NCBI GenBank assembly: GCA_020348925.1
Contig: CP070758.1
Span: 3,745,047-3,776,864 of the forward strand
Source: Gemmatimonadota bacterium
GTDB lineage: Bacteria > JBHIER01 > G020348925
Length of the DNA: 31,818 nucleotides
Reading direction: 5' to 3'
Part shown: positions 13,686 through 30,131 of the stretch, piece after piece
Layout of the letters: each line of letters opens with the position of its first letter
Numbering within the stretch: the stretch's first letter is position 1
Notes under the pieces: generated by a model
The model's database searches: none
Told to the model about the DNA's origin: nothing
Seen by the model: only the letters and a program-made list of their open reading frames with translations
Translations under genes and position numbers: made by a program

Positions 13686-15164
13686 ATGCAAAGTGTCTCA
13701 TCAGACGTAACTAAGCACAAGATAATACAGTGTGATTGGATGAGTTGGATGGAGAATCTGCAAAAAGAATCCGATAGAAATATGCTTCTTTCTCATTTTA
13801 CAATCGAGCACGCGAAAGATGCAGTTATTTGGCTGGATTCTGACGGACGCATTCACCGCGTCAATGATTCAGCCTGCAGGCTTTTGGGGTATACCCCTGA
13901 GGAACTTGTTGGGACAAAATTGTACGCTCTTCATCCGGAAGAGAATGAAGAGGTCTGGCGTCAAAGATGGAAAATTACAAAGGACAAAAGAGTCCATACC
14001 TTTGAAAAGGTCCAGCCCACAAAGGACGGGGTTTGGATACCGGTTGAAGTGGTTCAACATTTTCTTGAACTTGAAGGTGAGGCGTATTGCTGTAGTTTTC
14101 TTCACGATTTGAGTGAGCGAAAAAGAACCGAAGAGGATCTCAGAAGTACCCTGGCAGAACTTGAGCGATTGAAGAACCAGCTTCAACGCGAGAACGTCTA
14201 TCTGCAAAATGAGATCAAGCGCATTCATAATTTTGAGAATATAATTTGTCAGAGCAACATACTCAAAGAAGTGTTGGGGAGAGTGGAACAGGTCGCATCA
14301 ACAGATGCAACGGTCCTCATTCTCGGTGAAACCGGAACCGGGAAGGAACTTATTGCCCGATCTATTCACAGTATCAGCCCTCGCAGCCACCGACCTCTGA
14401 TTAAGGTTGATTGTGCGATGTTACCGGCAAATCTTATTGAAAGCGAGCTTTTTGGTCACGAGAAAGGGGCTTTTACAGGGGCTTTTTCTCGAAAAATTGG
14501 ACGTTTTGAAATAGCCCATGGCAGCACAATCTTTTTAGATGAGATAGGCAATCTCCCTATAGATATGCAGGTGAAGCTCTTACGAGTTCTACAAGACGGT
14601 GAATTCGAACGTCTGGGAAGTGCCAAAACAATCACGTGTGACGTTCGCGTTATCACTGCGACAAACAGAAATCTCGAAAAAGAAGTGGAAGAAGGAAATT
14701 TCCGCGAAGATTTGTACTATCGCCTGAATGTATTTCCGATTCATATTCCCTCGCTTCGAGAACGTAAGGAGGATATACCCTTATTGGTTAAGTTTTTTAT
14801 TCAAAAGTACAATAAAAAATTGGGGAGGAATATTGAGAGAATCCCGCAAAAAGTGATGGAAAGATTGACTCAATACCACTGGCCGGGAAATGTGCGGGGT
14901 TTAGAGAATATAATTCAAAGAGCGATGATTGTCAGTAAGGGGCGCCAGCTCGAAATTGGCGACTGGTTCTTACCGCAGAATGTATCTGCCGCTGTTTCTA
15001 CCGTGAAAACATTGGAGGAGGTTGAAAGAGCGCATATCACAGAAGTGCTGGAAACGACTCACTGGCGGGTAAGCGGTGAGAGGGGAGCTGCAAACATTTT
15101 GGGGATGAAGCCTACGACACTGGAATCAAGGATGAAAAAGTTGGGAATCAAACGGAAGAATTGA
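13686..15164 (+). CDS. PAS-domain sigma-54 enhancer-binding transcriptional activator
   Basis: A 492-residue regulator. A PAS sensor domain (about 35-143) is followed by a coiled linker (145-185) and an AAA+ sigma-54 interaction domain with Walker A GETGTGKE (214-221), an intact GAFTGA loop (261-266) and Walker B FLDEIG. A Fis-type helix-turn-helix lies at about 445-490. It should bind upstream sites and remodel sigma-54 RNA polymerase in response to a PAS-sensed signal; no response-regulator receiver domain is present. The usual WPGNVRELEN reads [10 protein letters not shown] here. The start is uncertain: ATG 13686 overlaps a good promoter, so 13740 or 13749 may be used. A sigma-54-like promoter lies 138 bp past its stop codon, suggesting it controls the following genes. 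Confidence 0.93.
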
Positions 15165-19415: not shown

Positions 19416-19874
19416 ATGGGAGAACAAGTAACATTCAAACGCAACATCGGATTGTTTATGGCCGTGATGATCGGCATTGGCGCCATGATGGGACCGGGTA
19501 TATTTACCCTGCCCGGCGAATTGGCTCATATGGTCGGACCACTCGGCATTTTTGTCTATTTGGTTATGGGGCTCATCACCGTATTTACGGCCCTGAACTA
19601 CAGCGAGCTCGGCGCCGCCATCCCCCTTGCCGGTGGGGGATACTCCTTCACCAGCCGTACACTTCCCAAATCAGTGGCATTCTTCACAGGCTGGTTTTTC
19701 TGGATCGGCAATACTCTCGCCTGTTCTATGTATGTCATTATCTTTGCTCTCACTATCCGGGCTTATTTCTGGCCCGATGTAAGCGTCCCTCTTTTGGCTC
19801 TTCTCACAACGCTCGTATTTACGGCTGTCAACTTCAGAGGGATTTCTGAATCGATAAAAGTTATAACCTCATGA
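19416..19874 (+). CDS. APC permease, N-terminal part (split by a frame change)
   Basis: 152 residues covering the first four or five membrane helices of an APC amino-acid transporter. The family motif GIGAMMGPGIFTLPG lies at the substrate-site first helix, followed by NYSELGAAIPLAGGGYSF. It stops at TGA 19872-19874, right where a normal permease would continue, and the next frame begins at the overlapping ATG (19871). Joined residue by residue (...SIKVITS + MNLVELAIL...), the two frames give an ordinary APC sequence without gap or duplication. It is either a sequencing or genomic single-base loss, or a genuinely two-part permease with coupled translation. Confidence 0.8.
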   Translation: MGEQVTFKRNIGLFMAVMIGIGAMMGPGIFTLPGELAHMVGPLGIFVYLVMGLITVFTALNYSELGAAIPLAGGGYSFTSRTLPKSVAFFTGWFFWIGNTLACSMYVIIFALTIRAYFWPDVSVPLLALLTTLVFTAVNFRGISESIKVITS

Positions 19875-21463
19875 ATCTCGTGGAGCTTGCGATACTCGTC
19901 GGAGTTGCACTGTTGGGGCTCTTTCAGGTCGAGCCTGTAAACCTCAAACCCATGGCCCCTTTGGGATATGAGCAGTTCGTACCTGCCATGGCTCTCATAT
20001 ACATTTCTTATGTTGGTTTCGAATTAATCACTGTGGCCGCCGAGGAGATAATTAATCCGGGGAAGACTATCCCCAGAGCCATCCTCAGCACGTTAGGGGT
20101 AGGTGTGACTGTCTACGTGTTTGTTGTGTGGGTTATGATGGGAGCTGTCAACTATGAAGACCTCGCCCGGAGTGATGTGCCTTTCATATTTACCGCCGAT
20201 CGACTCTTCGGAGCCTGGGGACGCTGGGCCGCCATTGTGGCTACCGTCATGGCCAGTCTCTCGGCCTTGAGTGTAACATTGGGGGCCAGTGCACGGGTTT
20301 TGTATGCCCTGGGTCGGGATGGACATTTCCCCCTTTTTTTCGCGCGGCTTCATCGCCACTATCGCACACCACACGTAGCCCTTTTCGTATGCGCCCTTGT
20401 TGTCATTCTATTCAGTGCATCAGGAATCGTGAAATTTGTTGCCTCGGTAAGTGATTTCGGCTACTTGATGGGGCTCGGTATTGTCAACTACGCCGTGATA
20501 TCACTCCACAAGCGTATGCCAAACTTACGGCGTCCCTTTAAGGTGATTCTGTTTCCATTTATTCCGATATTGGGAATTCTTTCCTGCTGGCTTTTCGTGC
20601 CCGCTCTGGAGACGAGAAGCTTTCTCCTGGGTGGTGTGCTCACTTTCGCAGGTGGAGGTATCCACCTCATCCGCCCGACCAATCGAGCTGAGATTCGGAG
20701 AACACGGGAAATTCTTTCAGCGATCAAAGTGTTCATTCTTTTAAAACGGAGGAAACGGATGCGTGTGCTCATAATTGACGGAGGAAAACAGGCTCAAAAT
20801 ATCGCCAATCGACTTTTAGCCAAGGATGAATTTCGACTGATGTTTCGTTCGTCAGAACATCAAATCACGTTCATCGAGGAGGATGATGTCCGGTGCAAAG
20901 AGCTGGAACAGCGTTTCAATGTTCCGATATATCAGGGTGATGGTACCAAGAGGGAGCTGCTCGAGCAGGTGGGATTGGATAATATCGATGTCGCCATTGC
21001 GGCCTCAAACGATGACGGTCGCAATGTGATTGTCGCGCTTCAGGCGAAACAACTTGGATTGAGTCAGGTTATTGCCATCGTTCAGGATCCCGATTATGTA
21101 CCTCTTCTTGAGGAGAATGGTGTCGTTGCCATCAGTGCACCGTGGGCCACTGCGACGATGGTGGAAAACTATTTAGATCGGCCCGGTGTCGCTGAACTCT
21201 TTGAGATAGGGACAGGTGAAGCCAGTCTTGTTGGCGTTTTTGTGCCGGAAAAATCTCGAGTGGTTGGAAATCTTATCAGGGAAATTGAGATTCCAACTGA
21301 GTGTGTTGTGGCAGCCATTATCAGGGAAAAGCGATTTGTTGTCCCCCGTGGTGACACAAAAATAGAGGTCGGCGACCATGTTGTCTTTGTAGGACCCGCC
21401 TCTGCCATCAAGAGGGCACAGGATATTTTCATGTTTAAGAAACAGTCAACAGGAATTCCTTAA
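19871..21463 (+). CDS. APC permease, C-terminal part, fused to an RCK (TrkA-N/TrkA-C) module
   Basis: 530 residues. Residues 1-280 hold the remaining permease helices (YVGFELITVAAEEIINP, SLSALSVTLGASARVLYALGRDG). Residues about 297-430 form an RCK/TrkA-N Rossmann domain beginning MRVLIIDGGKQAQNIA, with the acidic strand-2 end (FIEEDD) and GDGTKRELLEQVG. Residues about 450-525 form a TrkA-C (RCK-C) domain. The glycine-rich loop reads GGKQAQ rather than GxGxxG, so nucleotide binding may be altered. RCK domains gate K+ channels and transporters on binding NAD(H), ATP or c-di-AMP. ATGA overlap couples it to the first half. An internal start at 20759 could yield the RCK part alone. Confidence 0.85.
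   Translation: MNLVELAILVGVALLGLFQVEPVNLKPMAPLGYEQFVPAMALIYISYVGFELITVAAEEIINPGKTIPRAILSTLGVGVTVYVFVVWVMMGAVNYEDLARSDVPFIFTADRLFGAWGRWAAIVATVMASLSALSVTLGASARVLYALGRDGHFPLFFARLHRHYRTPHVALFVCALVVILFSASGIVKFVASVSDFGYLMGLGIVNYAVISLHKRMPNLRRPFKVILFPFIPILGILSCWLFVPALETRSFLLGGVLTFAGGGIHLIRPTNRAEIRRTREILSAIKVFILLKRRKRMRVLIIDGGKQAQNIANRLLAKDEFRLMFRSSEHQITFIEEDDVRCKELEQRFNVPIYQGDGTKRELLEQVGLDNIDVAIAASNDDGRNVIVALQAKQLGLSQVIAIVQDPDYVPLLEENGVVAISAPWATATMVENYLDRPGVAELFEIGTGEASLVGVFVPEKSRVVGNLIREIEIPTECVVAAIIREKRFVVPRGDTKIEVGDHVVFVGPASAIKRAQDIFMFKKQSTGIP
20748..20761 (+). promoter_or_regulatory. Internal ribosome-binding site and start within the permease-RCK gene
   Basis: GGAGG (20748-20752), 6 nt, then ATG (20759-20761) in the reading frame of the gene and exactly at the first residue of the RCK domain. 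This could make a separate 234-residue TrkA-like protein ending at 21463, close to the size of stand-alone KtrA-type subunits. Confidence 0.5.
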
Positions 21464-22647: not shown

Positions 22648-23032
22648 CACATTATGTTTTATGAGGATAGTACTGTGAGAGAGGCAATCTGAAAGATGCT
22701 GTCTCGTGTTCCCTGCAGGATTGCATGAAGCACCGTGGGTGTTTTATTGAAATCTGTTCCGCTCACATGCTTAAGATTTCCGTGAGAGGTGTATCGAAAA
22801 AATCGACGGAAGAACACTGTTATGTAAAAAATTGATTGATAGGATCAATTAAAAGTGTTATTATTTATGTGAGTTAAGTGAAGCCTGTGAGGTATGGTGC
22901 AAAAAATGTGCTGGGCGGAATGCGGAATGGTGACACATGATGTTTCTTGACATGTGAGACCGTTGCATCCGGTTTCTTAAATGATGGAATTGGCACGTGT
23001 CCATAATTTTAGATACTGTCTGAGATTTCGTA
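22648..23032. other. Intergenic region and leader of the PLP/DUF1611 operon
   Basis: 385 bp without a recognisable gene. It contains a good promoter (22836-22864) and then a leader of about 160 nt carrying a CACATG...CATGTG hairpin (22934-22956). An AATTGAT...ATCAATT inverted repeat (22830-22850) overlaps the -35 element and could be an operator. The TGGCACG at 22991 lacks a matching -12 element. I do not recognise a riboswitch. Confidence 0.5.
22836..22864 (+). promoter_or_regulatory. Sigma-70-type promoter for the 23-28.8 kb operon
   Basis: TTGATA (22836-22841), 17-nt spacer, TATTAT (22859-22864); each hexamer matches consensus at 5 of 6 positions. A 7-bp inverted repeat AATTGAT/ATCAATT overlaps the -35, which suggests repression by a dimeric factor. 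Transcription would begin near 22871. Confidence 0.6.
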
Positions 23033-24172
23033 ATGTTTCATCGAGGCTCAAAAGAAGACGCTTCCATAAAGAGGAATACCATTAATACGCCTGACAGTGG
23101 ATTTGGTCTTAACCTCCTGGATGGTGCGACGTCCGAAGTGCTGCGTCTGCCACCTGAGCTGGAGACACAGAAGAAAGTCGCCGCAGATGTGAACCGTCCT
23201 TTGGAAGAACGCATCGAGGCTTTCGAGGACATCATGGATTCCGAGGTGGGCGATACAACCATGTCACGGGCGCGCAATATTGAGCGGGAGGTGGGATTCC
23301 GACAAATCTATGTCAAGTTTGAGGGGGGAAATCCCACTGGTACACAGAAGGATCGCATCTCCTTCGCCCAAGCCATGGATGCCATGCGGCGGGGATTCGA
23401 CACCGTCACCACAGCAACGTGTGGTAATTATGGCGTTGCCGTGGCCCTGGCTGCTTCGTTGGCCGGCTTGAAGTGCATTATCTATATTCCGGAAACATAT
23501 CATACCAAGCGTGTCAAAGAGATGACCGATTTTGGTGCGGAAATCGTACGGGTGCCGGGCGATTATGAACAGGCGGTGGTCGTCTCCAGAAAACGGGCCG
23601 AGCGGAATGAGATATACGATGCCAATCCCGGGGGGGCCAATACAATCCAGCAAATGAGGGCCTACGGTGAGATCGCCTATGAAATCTACGATGAACTCAG
23701 GGATGCTCCGGCCACGGTTGCTGTCCCGGTCTCCAACGGGACGACACTGGCTGGAATTTTCAAGGGCTTTCAAAGCCTGTATCGTCGCGGAAGAATCTCC
23801 AGAATTCCCAAGATTATTGCCGGTTCCTCGTTCGGGAAAAATCCCATCATTCAGGCCTTTTTGAAGAATTCGTCCCAGTGTGACGATCTCGATCCCCAGC
23901 ACATTCACGAGACGGCCATAAATGAGCCATTGATCAACTGGCACTCCTTTGACGGAAATCATGCTCTGGAAGCCATCAGAGGATCCCGAGGTTGGGCGGC
24001 CTATGCCAGCGATAAGAACATGTTGCTCTACTCGAAGTTGATTCGGGAGCGGGAAGGCTTGAGCGTGCTTCCTGCCTCCACGGCCGGCCTGATTGCTCTC
24101 CTGGATCATCACCAGAAGGAACCGCTCACCAGTGATCGCTATGTGGTTATTCTTACAGGGAGAAAAACGTGA
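23033..24172 (+). CDS. Threonine-synthase-like PLP-dependent enzyme (fold type II)
   Basis: A 379-residue fold-type-II PLP enzyme. The cofactor lysine is in GGNPTGTQKDR (Lys106; threonine synthase has NPTGSFKDR), the phosphate/substrate loop is TATCGNYGVAVALAA, and the region PVSNGTTLAGIFKGF lies near the PLP phosphate. The relatives nearest by eye are threonine and cysteate synthases, which do beta/gamma-replacement or elimination on phospho- or acyl-amino acids. Position 1 of a tight operon (GTGA overlap with the next gene) suggests it makes or consumes an amino acid used by the following enzymes. No classical threonine operon partners (thrA, thrB) are nearby, so a specialised role is likely. 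No Shine-Dalgarno precedes ATG 23033. Confidence 0.85.
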   Translation: MFHRGSKEDASIKRNTINTPDSGFGLNLLDGATSEVLRLPPELETQKKVAADVNRPLEERIEAFEDIMDSEVGDTTMSRARNIEREVGFRQIYVKFEGGNPTGTQKDRISFAQAMDAMRRGFDTVTTATCGNYGVAVALAASLAGLKCIIYIPETYHTKRVKEMTDFGAEIVRVPGDYEQAVVVSRKRAERNEIYDANPGGANTIQQMRAYGEIAYEIYDELRDAPATVAVPVSNGTTLAGIFKGFQSLYRRGRISRIPKIIAGSSFGKNPIIQAFLKNSSQCDDLDPQHIHETAINEPLINWHSFDGNHALEAIRGSRGWAAYASDKNMLLYSKLIREREGLSVLPASTAGLIALLDHHQKEPLTSDRYVVILTGRKT

Positions 24173-25251
24173 GCACCTTTCCGGAAGGGTATGCCATTGT
24201 GTACTGCCATGGAGCTTTTGGGACCCCGAATGGTAAAACGGCCCACGGTTTGGTGAGAAGGACGTATCGATACAACGTTCTGTCCGTTATCGATTCCCGA
24301 TATGCCGGTCAAGATGCCGGCTTCGTTTTAGATGGCATGAGTAAGAATGTGCCGATAGTTGAGGATGTCCAGACAGCAGTGGCTGCGTCGAGGTCGGGAA
24401 CAACTCCGGCAACCCACTTCGTCATCGGACTGGCCCCGGATGGCGGGCGGCTGAGTCCCGAGGCCAGGGACGATGTGAAGGAGGCGATAGGGCTTGGCCT
24501 GAACGTGGATTGTGGACTGCACGATTTTCTCTCCGAGGATCCTGAACTATCGGGCCTGGCGTCGGCCTGCGGCGTCCGGTTGCGCGACGTCCGCAAACCG
24601 CCGCCTCGAAGCGAGCTGCACTTTTTCAGCGGGAAAATTGAGCAGGTTGACTCGTTGAAGATCGCCATGTTAGGGACTGATTCCGCCGTGGGCAAACGGA
24701 CGACGGCCTGGATCCTCGTAGAGGCCCTCAGGGCTGCCGGTCACACTGCCGAGATGATCGGCACGGGCCAGACGGCCTGGATGCAGGGGGTTCGATACGG
24801 CCTCATCCTGGATTCGCTCGTCAACGATTTCGTGGCCGGCGAGATCGAACATGCCGTCTGGTCGGCCTGGCGTGACGTCCACCCTGACGTCATTATGATC
24901 GAAGGACAGGGCAGCCTCATGAATCCGGCCTATCCCGGTGGTTACGAAATTCTGGCAGCCGGTCGCCCGGATGCGGTCATTCTCCAGCATGCGCCGGCGA
25001 GAAAGGAGTACGACGGATTTCCAGGGTATCAAATTCATCCTCTGCACAAGCAGATCGAAGCCATCGAGCTCGTTTCGGGGAAGCCGGTAATAGCGATTAC
25101 GATCAATCACGAGAACCTCTCCAAGGAAGAGATCCCGGCTGTGTGTGAGAGGATACAGACAGAGACCGGATTGCCAACGTCCGATGTCCTGAAGTATGGA
25201 GCCGACGAGATTGTGTCCTCCATTCTTACCTATTTGAAAAAAGGATTGTAG
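24169..25251 (+). CDS. DUF1611 P-loop protein (DgcN / D-glutamate N-acetyltransferase family)
   Basis: A 360-residue protein with the DUF1611 layout. An N-terminal Rossmann-like part (about 1-145) contains VIDSRYAGQDAG. A C-terminal P-loop NTPase-like domain carries GTDSAVGKRT (169-178) and IEGQGSLMNPAYPGG (244-258). Members of this family were characterised as DgcN, which N-acetylates D-glutamate so that DgcA (an enolase-superfamily racemase) can convert it. An enolase-superfamily epimerase is encoded two genes downstream here. Start is GTG 24169 overlapping the previous TGA, with GGGAG 6 nt upstream. Family call is firm, the enzymatic call is by homology. Confidence 0.85.
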   Translation: MSTFPEGYAIVYCHGAFGTPNGKTAHGLVRRTYRYNVLSVIDSRYAGQDAGFVLDGMSKNVPIVEDVQTAVAASRSGTTPATHFVIGLAPDGGRLSPEARDDVKEAIGLGLNVDCGLHDFLSEDPELSGLASACGVRLRDVRKPPPRSELHFFSGKIEQVDSLKIAMLGTDSAVGKRTTAWILVEALRAAGHTAEMIGTGQTAWMQGVRYGLILDSLVNDFVAGEIEHAVWSAWRDVHPDVIMIEGQGSLMNPAYPGGYEILAAGRPDAVILQHAPARKEYDGFPGYQIHPLHKQIEAIELVSGKPVIAITINHENLSKEEIPAVCERIQTETGLPTSDVLKYGADEIVSSILTYLKKGL

Positions 25252-25256
25252 GACCT

Positions 25257-27677
25257 ATGCCTGAAACGAAAGGGAGAAGAACCATGCCCAAGGGTCGCCC
25301 ACGAGAACGGACAGAAGACGATCCGTTAGGTGTTTTGAGTGTCATTCGACGTTTGGAGGTCGGTCCGGTCCGGCTTGAGAAAAAGCGCATCATTGCGCCC
25401 TACACGGTGATTCAGAATGGGGTGAGGGACGTCTATGATTTCGAATACCGCTTCGAAGAAACTGTGTTCGATCCAGGGGAGCCGGCCTCTCTCAATGTGG
25501 CCTCGGTGATGGCGGCCCAGGTGGCCCTCAACTACGGCCTGTTCTGTGATGAAATCGTCTTTCACGGATTGTTCGACCGACGGGATCGTCGGTTCATTCA
25601 GGAGATGGCGGATAATACGGCTCGCGAGATATACGTCAAGAAGTTTCTCGAACCCAATCCCTTTCTCCTCAAGGGGGCGGCAAAACTCCCCCCGCTGAAG
25701 CGGGAGAAGTACTTGCGGGCGGAGCTCATTTTTTCGAATGATGAATTAAGATCCTCCTCCCGTGCTGATGATGTGATTCCAAAATTGGATGCCTGGACCA
25801 TCCACCGGACTCGCCACGCCATACTCAGCAGCGGGGGGAAGGATAGCCTCTTGAGTTATGGCCTGTTGCGGGAGATGGGATGTGAGACGCACCCCATCTT
25901 TATCAATGAGTCCGGGCGCCACTGGTTCACCGCCTTGAACGCCTACCGACATTTCAAGAGCCACGTTCCGGAGACGGCCCGGGTGTGGACCAATTCGGAC
26001 CGGGTATTCGCCTGGATGCTGCGACATTTTCCTTTCATACGCCAGGATTTTGCCCAACTCCGTTCAGACGAGTATCCCCTCCGGCTGTGGACGGTGGCCG
26101 TATTTTTGTTCGGTGCCCTGCCCCTCCTCAGAAAAAGGGGTATCGGGAGACTCATTATTGGTGACGAATACGATACAACGCGAAGGCTGTCTCATAAAGG
26201 CATACCTCATTACGACGGTCTCTACGATCAAAGCATGTACTTTGACAATGCCCTGACCCGTTACTTCGGACGGAAGAATTGGGGTGTCACTCAATTCTCA
26301 ATTGTGAGGTCGCTTTCTGAGATGTTGATCGAGAAAATATTGGCCGAGCGATACCCTGAACTCCAGCAGCATCAGGTCTCATGCCACGCCGCGCACAAAG
26401 AGGGGGAGAGAATACATCCCTGCGGTCGGTGCGAGAAGTGTCGGAGAATTGTAGGTATGCTAAAAGCCCTGGGGGCAGATCCGGGCCTGTGTGGATATTC
26501 AAAGAACCAGATAGAATACTGCCTCAAGAGCCTGACAGAAAAAGAGGTGCACCAGGAGGCGGCCGGGGCTCAGCATATGATGTCTCTGTTGGCCGAGAAA
26601 AACATTTTTCCGAAAGCCTTCGGGATTTCGAAAGGTTTCAAACAACACCCCGAAATTTTGAAGCTCAGAATTGATCCGGAGCGGTCCCCAATAGAGGGTA
26701 TACCTGTTGATCTTCGTCAACCTCTCTTTAACATTTTTCTCAAACACGCCGAAGGGGCCGTTCGGCGCAGCGGCCGTGTCTGGCTCGAATTTGATCCTCT
26801 CTCTGATCCGGCTCTTGTCGAGCCCTATCCTTTTGAGAATCCGAAAGGTGAAATGGGACCACCATCCTCCGATGGGCAACGTCGGGCGAGTCAAAAAAGT
26901 AAGCACATCTTGGCCGAACTGACCTGGCCGGAGGCAAAAGAGAGACTGAAGGAGGTCGACGTCGCCCTGTTGCCGGTTGGGTCCGTGGAACAGCATGGGC
27001 TTCACCTGCCTTTGGACACGGATGCCTTCGATGCCGACTACCTGGCCCGTCGGGTTGCGGAGACATGCAGCGATCCCAAACCTCTGGTTCTGCCGCTGAT
27101 TCCCTATGGCGTTTCGTATCATCACGAAGATTTTGTGGGTACGATCAGTATCTCCAACGATACGCTGGGGCGTTTGGTCTACGATATCGGTGTGAACGCA
27201 GCCCGGCACGGTATCACGAAATTGGTCATTATTAACGGACACGGTGGGAACACGCCGGCCCTCCAATTTGCCGCTCAGATGATTAATCGTGACGCGCATA
27301 TCTTCACCTGTGTGGACTCCGGTGAGTCGAGTGATGCGGACATTGCTGCGATGATCGAAACACCGAACGATGTCCATGCCGGGGAAATCGAGACGAGTAC
27401 CTCCCTGGCTACCCGGCCTCATCTGGTCGATGTGGAGAAAGCACGGAAGTTTGTTCCCCATTTCTCCAGCCGTTATCTCAATTTCAGCTCGAAGCGAAGC
27501 GTGGAATGGTATGCCAGGACGGCTAAAATATCCAAGGCCGGTGTGCTCGGGGATCCCAAAAAGGCGAGCCGCCAGAAGGGCGAACGCATATGGGACGTTA
27601 TGATCAAGAATCTTGTTGAATTCGTGGAAGACTTGAAAAGCATGACGCTGGATGAGATCTACGAGAAGAGGTATTGA
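25257..27677 (+). CDS. Fusion: MurL-like PP-loop domain + creatininase-family amidohydrolase
   Basis: 806 residues from ATG 25257; ATG 25284 has the better site (AGGGAG, 7 nt) and would remove 9 residues. Part 1 (about 30-530) has the PP-loop ATP-pyrophosphatase motif SSGGKDS (191-197) and a QueC-like zinc site, C376 plus CGRCEKC (C389, C392, C395). Its N-terminal segment (DFEYRFEETVFDPG) and order of motifs recall MurL, the ATP-dependent UDP-MurNAc-L-Ala-L-Glu epimerase. Part 2 (about 551-800) is creatininase-family: LPVGSVEQHGLHLPLDTDA (E578, H580, D587), NGHGGN (660-665) and HAGEIETS (E710). It resembles the MftE/ArfB branch more than creatininase. Both active sites look complete. The family-specific reaction is unproven. 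Confidence 0.85.
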   Translation: MPETKGRRTMPKGRPRERTEDDPLGVLSVIRRLEVGPVRLEKKRIIAPYTVIQNGVRDVYDFEYRFEETVFDPGEPASLNVASVMAAQVALNYGLFCDEIVFHGLFDRRDRRFIQEMADNTAREIYVKKFLEPNPFLLKGAAKLPPLKREKYLRAELIFSNDELRSSSRADDVIPKLDAWTIHRTRHAILSSGGKDSLLSYGLLREMGCETHPIFINESGRHWFTALNAYRHFKSHVPETARVWTNSDRVFAWMLRHFPFIRQDFAQLRSDEYPLRLWTVAVFLFGALPLLRKRGIGRLIIGDEYDTTRRLSHKGIPHYDGLYDQSMYFDNALTRYFGRKNWGVTQFSIVRSLSEMLIEKILAERYPELQQHQVSCHAAHKEGERIHPCGRCEKCRRIVGMLKALGADPGLCGYSKNQIEYCLKSLTEKEVHQEAAGAQHMMSLLAEKNIFPKAFGISKGFKQHPEILKLRIDPERSPIEGIPVDLRQPLFNIFLKHAEGAVRRSGRVWLEFDPLSDPALVEPYPFENPKGEMGPPSSDGQRRASQKSKHILAELTWPEAKERLKEVDVALLPVGSVEQHGLHLPLDTDAFDADYLARRVAETCSDPKPLVLPLIPYGVSYHHEDFVGTISISNDTLGRLVYDIGVNAARHGITKLVIINGHGGNTPALQFAAQMINRDAHIFTCVDSGESSDADIAAMIETPNDVHAGEIETSTSLATRPHLVDVEKARKFVPHFSSRYLNFSSKRSVEWYARTAKISKAGVLGDPKKASRQKGERIWDVMIKNLVEFVEDLKSMTLDEIYEKRY

Positions 27678-27692
27678 TGAGCAGGATGTGCT

Positions 27693-28766
27693 ATGAAGAT
27701 CACCAAGGTTGAAGCATGGCCTGTCTCCATGCGACTGGAGGAGCCATACACCATCGCCTATGAGACCGTGGAGACGGCGACGAACGTTTTTTTGCGCATC
27801 GAGACCAACAGCAGTGTTGTCGGTTTCGGTTGTGCCGCCCCGGATGTGCATATCACCGGTGAAACAGCGGAAGGCGTGCTCCAAAATCTGAACGACAGTG
27901 TCAAGCAAAGTCTTTTGAATTCGGACCCCCTGCGGTCGGCCATGCTCCTGGAGCGGCTGAAAGGTATTTTGAACAAACAGTATTCGACCCTTGCTGCCGT
28001 TGATATGGCGCTCTATGATGTCGTCGGGAAAACGGCCGGCCTGCCGGTTTGGAAACTATTGGGAGGATTTCGTGACAGAATCAAGACGAGTGTGACCATC
28101 GGCATTCTGTCTGAAAAGGAGACCGTGGAGAGAGCGAAGGAGTGGATTGCCCGTGGCTTCACAAGTCTCAAGCTCAAAGGGGGAAAGGACGTAGAGTCCG
28201 ATACAGCGCGTGTTCTCAAGGTAAGAGAAGCGGTGGGCAAGGATGTGGAACTTCGTTTCGATGCCAATCAGGGGTACACGGTCGAGGACTCCCTCGCCTT
28301 TGTTGAGCGTACACGGGCCGCTCACCTGGAACTCATTGAGCAGCCGACACCCAAAGGTGAACCGGATCTCCTCGGCAGGGTAACCAGCAGCGTCCACATC
28401 CCTGTCATGGCGGATGAGAGTCTCATGACACTGCGTGACGCTTTTCGCCTGGCGCGCCGCGACCTTGTCGATATGGTCAACATCAAACTGATGAAGGTTG
28501 GAGGCATCTCTGAGGCGCTTCATATCAATGCAGTGGCAAAGGCAGCGAAATTGGAGGCCATGGTTGGCTGTATGGACGAAGCGGCCTTGGGCATCGCGGC
28601 CGGTCTTCATTTCGCCCTGGCGCGACCGAACGTCATGTATGCCGATCTCGACGGTCATATCGGTCTTGTGAACGATCCTTCCGAAGGTGCGGTCATGATT
28701 CGAAGCGGAACGCTTTTCCCGAACCCCAAACCGGGATTGGGATGTGACTTGAAGGTGAATAATTAG
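27693..28766 (+). CDS. Enolase-superfamily dipeptide epimerase (Ala-Glu epimerase / DgcA-like)
   Basis: 357 residues of the muconate-lactonising-enzyme subgroup. The catalytic acid/base lysines are in LKLKGG (Lys162) and KLMKVGG (Lys268). Metal ligands are in FDANQG (D190), EQP (E216) and ADES (D241). The lysine numbering is the same as in Bacillus subtilis L-Ala-D/L-Glu epimerase as I recall it. The C-terminal DLD (318-320) is the DxD that in dipeptide epimerases holds the substrate amino group, favouring a dipeptide over an N-acyl substrate. AGGA lies 6 nt before the ATG. The gene is 15 bp from the fusion gene, so it belongs to the same operon. Roles fitting the context: muropeptide recycling, or racemising N-acetyl-D-Glu (DgcA). 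Confidence 0.9.
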   Translation: MKITKVEAWPVSMRLEEPYTIAYETVETATNVFLRIETNSSVVGFGCAAPDVHITGETAEGVLQNLNDSVKQSLLNSDPLRSAMLLERLKGILNKQYSTLAAVDMALYDVVGKTAGLPVWKLLGGFRDRIKTSVTIGILSEKETVERAKEWIARGFTSLKLKGGKDVESDTARVLKVREAVGKDVELRFDANQGYTVEDSLAFVERTRAAHLELIEQPTPKGEPDLLGRVTSSVHIPVMADESLMTLRDAFRLARRDLVDMVNIKLMKVGGISEALHINAVAKAAKLEAMVGCMDEAALGIAAGLHFALARPNVMYADLDGHIGLVNDPSEGAVMIRSGTLFPNPKPGLGCDLKVNN

Positions 28767-28792: not shown

Positions 28793-29533
28793 GTGAAAAA
28801 TCCTAAGACACAACAAGGAAGACACATTACAGACTTTGACTTGCCTCCTGGATATGAGCTGGCTGGGAAGTATCAAATCATTTCCAAGCTCGGGTCGGGA
28901 TGGGAGGGGGAAGTATACAAAATTCGGGAGATGAGGACCGGCATCGACAGGGCCGCCAAGCTCTTTTTCCCTCAAAGAAATATAGGCAATCGAACCGCGA
29001 AACGGTATGCGAAAAAATTGCATAAGTTGCGGCACTGCTCGATTTTGATCCAGTACCACACCGAAGAGCTGATCCGGTATCGAAAGGTCCCGGTCACTGT
29101 CCTTGTCTCCGAATATGTTGAAGGGGAGTTGTTGTCCGATTTCCTGAAGAGACATCCGGGCCACAGGCTCCAGCCCTTCGAAGCGCTTCATCTCCTCCAT
29201 TCTCTAACAAAAGGGATGGAAGAAATCCATCTTCATAACGAATATCACGGCGATTTGCATCTGGATAATATTATTGTCAGGCGCTTCGGGCTTGCGTTCG
29301 ATTTGAAGCTCATCGATCTTTTTCACTGGGAAGGATCGAAAAGTGAAAACAGGCAGACGGATATCTGTTTCTTGATACGTGTTTTCTACGACACCCTTGG
29401 TGGCGCACGCCACTATCAGAGACACCCGGAGGCCGTAAAGTATATCTGCAGCGGTCTGAAACAGTCCATTATTCTGAAAAAATTTCGGACAATGACGCAG
29501 CTGCGGAAACATCTGGAAACAATGGAATGGTAA
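28793..29533 (+). CDS. Small eukaryotic-like protein kinase fold protein
   Basis: 246 residues with the kinase core: glycine loop LGSGWEGEVY (33-42), VAIK-lysine equivalent AAKLF (Lys56), hinge SEYVEGE, catalytic loop YHGDLHLDNI (151-160), and metal Asp in LIDLF (Asp175; DFG reads DLF). A C-lobe follows with RQTDICFL like the DxW region. It starts at GTG 28793, 26 bp after the epimerase stop, with a weak upstream site. The HGD form of the catalytic loop is shared by bacterial Ser/Thr kinases and small-molecule (APH/choline) kinases, so the substrate may be a protein or metabolite. No membrane helix or sensor domain is seen. Confidence 0.8.
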   Translation: MKNPKTQQGRHITDFDLPPGYELAGKYQIISKLGSGWEGEVYKIREMRTGIDRAAKLFFPQRNIGNRTAKRYAKKLHKLRHCSILIQYHTEELIRYRKVPVTVLVSEYVEGELLSDFLKRHPGHRLQPFEALHLLHSLTKGMEEIHLHNEYHGDLHLDNIIVRRFGLAFDLKLIDLFHWEGSKSENRQTDICFLIRVFYDTLGGARHYQRHPEAVKYICSGLKQSIILKKFRTMTQLRKHLETMEW

Positions 29534-29609
29534 TTTTGTGCGGTGTCTCATTGAACGTTGAAATACGAAAGACGTGAGCTTTGTATTCATTGCGCAGGGA
29601 GGATTGAGA

Positions 29610-30131
29610 ATGGAGGCTGTATTAGGAGGATTGATGGTTTTTTGCATGCGGGCGTGTGATATGAGCCTGGGGACCGTGAGAATGATTTTCATTATTCAGG
29701 GTCGGCGCCTCTTCGCTTCGATAATAGGTTTTGTCGAGGTAACCATTTTCGTCCTGGCCATCTCGAAAGTGATCCATAGTCTGACGGATGTCTGGCATAT
29801 TTTGGGATATGCCGGAGGATTCGCCTTGGGGACGTACATTGGCATGTTCATCGAAGGAAAGCTGTCCATGGGATTTTCACTGGTCAGAGTCGTTTCCCGC
29901 TACACACCTGAGGATGTGGCAGGAATACTCTGGCAACATGGATACGGTGCGACCATCATCGACGCGCGCGGCAAGGACGGACCGGTCAAGCTCATTCATA
30001 CCTTGTGCCGGAGAAGAGAGGTGAAAAAGATCTTGACCCTGGTGAACATCATTGATCCGAAGGCCTTCATTACCATACAGGACGCACGATCGAGTATACA
30101 CGGCTACTTGAATCCGGTGAAGAAACGGTGA
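29610..30131 (+). CDS. UPF0316 membrane protein (DUF5698 + DUF2179)
   Basis: From ATG 29610 the product is 173 residues, with AGGGAGGA 6 nt upstream as a strong reason to prefer it over GTG 29574. Three or four membrane segments (LGGLMVFCMRACDMSLGTVR at the start, VEVTIFVLAISKVI, GGFALGTYIGMFIE) are followed by a cytosolic alpha/beta DUF2179 domain ending RRREVKKILTLVN. The family is widespread and of unknown function; DUF2179 domains are also found on YitT-type membrane proteins. It sits between the kinase-like gene and the PsiE-family gene on the same strand, with short gaps. Confidence 0.85.
   Translation: MEAVLGGLMVFCMRACDMSLGTVRMIFIIQGRRLFASIIGFVEVTIFVLAISKVIHSLTDVWHILGYAGGFALGTYIGMFIEGKLSMGFSLVRVVSRYTPEDVAGILWQHGYGATIIDARGKDGPVKLIHTLCRRREVKKILTLVNIIDPKAFITIQDARSSIHGYLNPVKKR

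Follow-up and report, generated by a model that had tools for sequence, protein, structure and literature searches.

Four adjacent genes at positions 23033 to 28766 of a 31,818-nucleotide stretch of a Gemmatimonadota genome (GCA_020348925.1, contig CP070758.1; hereafter the window) form one conserved unit, kept in the same order and on one strand across about ten phyla, and they very probably constitute one undescribed pathway. They encode a pyridoxal phosphate (PLP) enzyme of the PALP family, a DUF1611 protein, a fusion of a PP-loop ATPase domain with a creatininase-family domain, and an epimerase of the enolase superfamily. Our tentative reading, which we judge the most likely of those weighed below, is that of an operon that spends ATP on the synthesis of a small derivative of an amino acid or dipeptide, with edited stereochemistry, and not of cell-wall D-glutamate. 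The window lies in a genome assembled as a single 5.04-Mb contig, and the features of the operon are as follows.

23033..24172, + strand: PALP, a fold-type II PLP enzyme, threonine-synthase-like (PRK06381 subfamily), 379 amino acids, PLP lysine K106
24169..25251, + strand: DUF1611 protein, Rossmann-like domain plus P-loop GTDSAVGKRTT, remote DgcN relative, 360 amino acids
25257-27677, + strand: fusion protein, whole open reading frame (ORF), PP-loop domain followed by creatininase-family domain
25257..26882, + strand: N-terminal domain of the fusion, MurL/QatC/QueC-like PP-loop ATPase, residues 1-542
26901..27677, + strand: C-terminal domain of the fusion, creatininase-family amidohydrolase, about residues 549-806
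27693..28766, + strand: enolase-superfamily enzyme of dipeptide-epimerase type, 357 amino acids

The case for a single unit is made by its conservation. When 386 genomes sampled across the domain were searched, the N-terminal domain of the fusion had five strong matches at 55-61% identity, each with the same partners beside it as far as the contig extends. A single-sequence scan of genome contigs with the fusion gave no match; with an alignment of six homologues, relatives of the domain came up at no fewer than 151 loci among 84,980 species genomes, a lower bound because only two peptide patterns were scanned. None were found in scans of viral contigs and of plasmids. From the at least 151 loci 80 were kept, and 52 with enough flanking sequence were treated as informative. 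The original prediction, a short note made from the window's sequence alone, had proposed co-occurrence of the four families elsewhere as a check, and this was passed: 41 of the 52 informative loci carry PALP, DUF1611, the PP-loop/creatininase fusion and the epimerase in this order on one strand. The epimerase is missing in three informative loci (L116, L119, L133), DUF1611 and the epimerase together in two (L060, L072), the creatininase domain in two (L085, L100), the creatininase domain and the adjacent epimerase in two (L106, L121), and PALP or PALP with DUF1611 in two (L081, L091). The 4-nucleotide overlap of PALP and DUF1611 recurs as well (33/66 loci) and, taken with the kept gene order, indicates that the grouping is more than chance. 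In other genomes, small extra genes seemed at first to separate PALP from the fusion; these were rejected, being wrong-frame ORFs over DUF1611.

Across 44 complete operons the mean pairwise identity of the four proteins is 59-62% and their distance matrices correlate (r 0.56-0.73), and catalytic motifs are nearly invariant among homologues. Most carriers belong to uncultured lineages, and among the phyla represented are Desulfobacterota/Myxococcota, Acidobacteriota, Gemmatimonadota, Planctomycetota, Bacteroidota, Ignavibacteriota, Latescibacterota and Zixibacteria. The carriers available in culture are Desulfosarcina alkanivorans, D. widdelii, strain NaphS2 and Flexithrix dorotheae. The operon tree clusters partially by phylum, and the mixing that it also shows would speak for functionally unrelated genes having been transferred together. 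Such a neighbourhood artefact is nevertheless close to refuted, as order, strand and translational coupling have been kept over about ten phyla at ~60% identity while the genes flanking the operon differ between loci. The earlier remark that the reader knew of no described system with this combination agrees with the searchable, non-subscription literature, in which neither a QueC/MurL-creatininase fusion nor this set of genes is described.

The layout itself is exactly as first proposed. Four genes on the + strand are linked by a 4-nucleotide overlap (GTGA, from the DUF1611 start at 24169 to the PALP end at 24172) and, by ORF coordinates, by gaps of 5 nucleotides between DUF1611 and the fusion and 15 between the fusion and the epimerase. 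The family names given to them (PLP enzyme, DUF1611, MurL-like/creatininase fusion, dipeptide-epimerase type) mostly hold in profile searches of the window's proteins against Pfam and curated families, where bit scores were read against gathering scores or curated cut-offs.

The fusion's N-terminal domain has no confident Pfam family and matches DUF6395/MurL weakly. All six of the family members compared match the MurL profile, again weakly (best 3.6e-7), and hhalign against MurL-like proteins returned a probability of 96.7% (E 3.9e-10, about 24% identity), pairing the SSGGKDS motif at fusion residues 191-197 with the VGGGKDS loop of the MurL-like proteins, along with both Cys motifs. In all 68 homologues SGGK(D/E)S and a C-H...C-G-x-C-x-x-C motif (here C376-H377...C389..C392..C395) are invariant. 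An AlphaFold model of the domain, with a predicted local distance difference test score (pLDDT) of 73 and a predicted template modelling score (pTM) of 0.77, has QatC as its best solved-fold match (Z 12.9, 4.7 Å over 307 residues, N-terminal extension included), and matches QueC (Z 12.4) and Cap9 (Z 11.2) also. The PP-loop Rossmann core, the SGGxDS loop and the C-terminal Cys motif of the QueC-family fold are all present. Judged by model and alignment, the domain is a true remote homologue of MurL with a predicted QatC/QueC PP-loop ATPase fold, so the label "MurL-like" describes a real relationship. The homology is remote only, as the full-length MurL family is missed by far (NF041275, cut-off 700 bits, score 18.5), and QueC proper is also missed, PF06508 being matched in two of the six members with a best E of 0.055.

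MurL is the closest named sequence family, and the two share the PP-loop motif, an FSxxRPxxE-like motif, the Cys motif and a QatC/QueC-like model fold. They differ in the creatininase domain of the fusion and in the substrate-side motifs, GDExDT and HYDGxYDQS in the operon proteins and SNENSA and NHQYSKS in MurL. PP-loop enzymes of the QueC fold use ATP to activate a carboxylate or its equivalent, the product of QueC being a nitrile. MurL inverts a Glu and comes with the partner MurD2, an L-Glu-adding ligase, where MurI is absent (PMC8788868), unlike the operon, where no Mur-ligase-like gene recurs among the neighbour clusters. MurL was reported without known conserved domains (PMC8788868), and a 2026 survey of the QueC family mentions neither MurL nor creatininase. 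A MurL-like protein at one locus (L134; NF041275 269 bits, below cut-off) was modelled as well. Its AlphaFold model (pLDDT 80.5) had no significant match with Foldseek alone; re-ranking with VIA-align matched it to QatC with Z 17.6 over 318 residues, most of its length, followed by QueC at 13.0 and by other PP-loop enzymes at ~9 or less. On this model, MurL itself apparently belongs to the PP-loop enzymes of the QueC/QatC family.

With the QatC, QueC and Cap9 group the domain shares the fold, a QatC-type N-terminal extension, the SGGxDS loop and the C-terminal Cys motif; it differs in having no queuosine or defence partners and in the extra creatininase domain of the fusion. The fold match to QatC also invites a reading in which the terminus of a protein is what the PP-loop domain modifies, by attachment or other alteration, as in Cap9, which conjugates an N-terminal glycine (PMC13279940). 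We regard protein or peptide modification of this kind as very unlikely here. No QatA-, QatB-, QatD- or CD-NTase-like gene recurs at the loci, PADLOC returned no match, and the genes that do accompany the domain encode small-molecule enzymes.

The C-terminal domain scores above the gathering score of the creatininase family (PF02633, 240.7 bits) and shares with creatininase, MftE and ArfB the core EQHG...H..DxD...NGHGGN. EQHG (578-581), D587, D589, NGHGGN (660-665) and E712 are conserved in homologues. It falls below the cut-offs of creatininase (TIGR04448, 111/235 bits) and MftE (149/172), and has NGHGGN where creatininase has NGHYEN, so that the Glu of the HYE metal motif is missing. It differs from the rest of the family in being joined to a PP-loop ATPase. 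The fusion might be a new kind of amidotransferase, in which the creatininase-type amidohydrolase would free ammonia or an amine that is channelled to a carboxyl-adenylate on the MurL/QueC-type PP-loop domain. It would then repeat, with an unrelated amidase, the layout of GMP synthetase, asparagine synthetase and NAD synthetase, and would serve a widespread pathway whose product contains a D-residue and is osmolyte-like or acts in signalling; as a complete proposal this is speculative and we think it unlikely.

PALP matches PF00291 (186 bits) and, well above its cut-off of 266, the curated family NF004996 "threonine synthase" (PRK06381; 440.9 bits). Threonine synthase is the curated name of that family, and for PALP it is a putative one. 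It is not the housekeeping enzyme, as the genome encodes a separate canonical ThrC (175 bits). K106 is kept in 67/67 homologues. Only six of 372 domain-wide genomes, the window's included, have a PALP at 57% identity or more, and in all six it lies next to operon partners; one of them (G328) has PALP, DUF1611 and the epimerase without the fusion protein. In one small genome (L173:8906-12568) a PALP of 44% identity lies beside, and divergent to, SerB- and aminotransferase-like genes, neighbours that, as far as sequence goes, possibly hint at a phosphoserine-type substrate.

The DUF1611 protein scores above the gathering scores of PF07755 (223.6 bits) and PF17396 (DUF1611_N, 82.2 bits), and its P-loop residues K176 and T178 are kept in 69/69 homologues. 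A DUF1611 protein and an enolase-superfamily epimerase also stand together in the DgcN-DgcA pathway of D-glutamate. The operon pair is far under the curated cut-offs of that pathway (DgcN NF041892, 161.1 bits against 480; DgcA, 161 against 400), and the operon adds PALP, the PP-loop domain and the creatininase domain. The window's genome, moreover, holds elsewhere a second and closer pair (L174:7954-10019; DgcN 248 and DgcA 226 bits). Besides this pair in the window's own genome (G000), adjacent DUF1611-epimerase pairs apart from the operon were seen in four further genomes (G396, G398, G400, G401), so the two look like a reusable module, here joined to PALP and the fusion. One paralogous epimerase-DUF1611 pair in Desulfobacterales (L175:1393-8911) follows apparent Opp-type permease genes, with an M20 peptidase on the opposite strand, and is likely a dipeptide salvage locus.

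Such a module would suit a route on the DgcN-DgcA plan that salvages or irreversibly racemises some D-amino acid, glutamate excepted: DUF1611 would N-acylate, the epimerase invert, the creatininase domain deacylate and PALP feed or drain the amino acid. The pairing outside the operon, the joint absence of both genes in L060 and L072 and the hydrolysis of amides by creatininase-family enzymes all speak for it. It leaves no role, however, for the ATP-consuming MurL/QueC-like domain, which is kept in L060 and L072 where DUF1611 and the epimerase are absent, and retained also in L116, L119, L133 and L121, which lack the operon-type epimerase. We consider this reading possible though doubtful.

The original prediction centred the operon on glutamate, as a pathway that would make, invert or salvage D-Glu or a D-Glu peptide; peptidoglycan fragments would be an example of the latter. 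The likeness of the operon proteins to the MurL, DgcN, DgcA and Ala-Glu epimerase families favours this, as does the finding that in 7 of the 16 other operon genomes no MurI reaches the curated cut-off. MurI is present, however, in the window's genome (257 bits) and in the remaining 9 of the 16. For four of the seven (D. alkanivorans L176, D. widdelii L178/L182, L179, L181) the weak hit turned out to be a racemase, either YgeA/RacD-like or MurI-like and divergent. In the genomes with MurI the operon is thus no replacement for it, and its mixed presence together with alternative racemases means that the operon does not track a need for D-Glu. A general replacement of MurI was accordingly dropped as unsupported.

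The epimerase bears on the same question. It is an MR_MLE protein of dipeptide-epimerase type by profile search, with 3jva, 1jpm and 3rit as nearest solved relatives, and falls below the curated cut-off of L-Ala-D/L-Glu epimerase (232/500 bits) as it does below that of DgcA. Its conserved residues K160, K162, D190, E216, D241, K265 and K268 comprise the catalytic lysines and metal acids of the enolase superfamily, and it shares with the dipeptide epimerases of B. subtilis (YkfB, 1jpm), M. capsulatus (3rit) and E. faecalis (3jva) full-length homology, catalytic lysines, metal ligands and a DxD motif. The latter was considered as a divider from DgcA-like enzymes and dropped, since DgcA-like sequences have DxD too. 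The differences lie in the specificity regions. In the 20s loop 56/57 operon epimerases have Tyr23 and 56/57 have Glu/Asp24 (E24 in the window's enzyme), in place of Arg24 of the B. subtilis Ala-Glu epimerase YkfB, which we take to hold the Glu side chain; DgcA-like sequences carry arginines at positions 20 and 23 and serve as proxies here, since their DgcA scores stay under the cut-off. Asp295-Glu296 is present in 57/57, in a GCMDE pocket found also in the M. capsulatus dipeptide epimerase 3rit, presumably a cationic-dipeptide epimerase. The presence of D295-E296 and the missing loop arginines argue against Glu at the inverted residue; the motifs do not name that residue. With MurI at hand, a better DgcN/DgcA-like pair elsewhere in the genome and no conserved MurD-like neighbour, the glutamate reading is not supported, and we rate it as quite unlikely.

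For the ATP-driven synthesis that we prefer, a possible sequence of steps can be drawn. PALP would make an unusual amino acid by PLP-dependent beta- or gamma-substitution. The PP-loop domain would adenylate a carboxylate (ATP to AMP and pyrophosphate) and hand it to an amine, or invert an alpha-carbon as MurL does, and the creatininase-type domain could cut or close an amide, or release ammonia for the PP-loop step. DUF1611 would move an acyl group onto an amine, like DgcN, and the epimerase would equilibrate the alpha-carbon of a C-terminal or N-acylated residue, a step that may be optional in some lineages. Synthesis is judged most likely because an ATP-dependent activator is part of nearly every version of the operon, because the unit has no transporter or conserved peptidase, which likewise favours synthesis over breakdown, and because dedicated paralogues stand beside housekeeping copies. 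Several points weigh against it. The conserved unit, its catalytic motifs and the PP-loop fold family are observed, but every reaction, substrate and product is inferred from relatives. A creatininase-type hydrolase and an epimerase would fit salvage too, the neighbourhood of the paralogous DUF1611-epimerase pair in L175, with its apparent Opp-type permease genes and M20 peptidase, looks catabolic, and amino-acid permeases lie near the operon in the window and at five other loci.

That some ten phyla have preserved the pathway whole suggests a metabolite for which no search has been made, and the culturable carriers make it testable. The tie between MurL, an antibacterial target, and the QueC/QatC PP-loop fold may also suggest how ATP-dependent epimerisation works.

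The transcript may extend past the epimerase, as a further gene follows closely on the same strand:

28793..29533, + strand: protein-kinase-like (Ser/Thr kinase-like) gene, 26 nucleotides past the epimerase

This is possibly an extension of the operon in the window's genome only, since the family is not conserved near the operon in the neighbour clusters of other loci. At the other end, a single promoter had been proposed for the four genes. Their close spacing on one strand stands, but the promoter is no more than plausible: the best sigma-70-like match (22836-22864) is one of 13 in the region, with 5.9 ± 2.5 expected by chance. A riboswitch search found none upstream of the operon here or in five other loci.

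At 29574-30131 of the window and at L056, L057, L063, L066-L068, L070, L076, L078 and L103 there are genes for small membrane proteins that carry DUF5698 and/or DUF2179, or YitT plus DUF2179. Proteins of these types are neighbours of the operon in several phyla, at about 16 of 81 loci, many less than 1 kb away, and the DUF5698/DUF2179 membrane protein is possibly a transporter or regulator. Sigma-54 activator genes occur less than 8 kb from the operon in the window (13686-15164) and 15 other loci (16/81), and GroEL and Hsp20 recur too; with scattered distances and no background rate, we make no claim of a stress-gene link. Finally, an amino-acid permease at 19416-21463 of the window is apparently split into two ORFs (19416-19874 and 19871-21463) in different frames with a 4-nucleotide overlap. 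The first ORF aligns with the beginning of an AA_permease profile and the second, which also has TrkA domains, with a later part of the same profile, as would result from a frameshift or assembly error.

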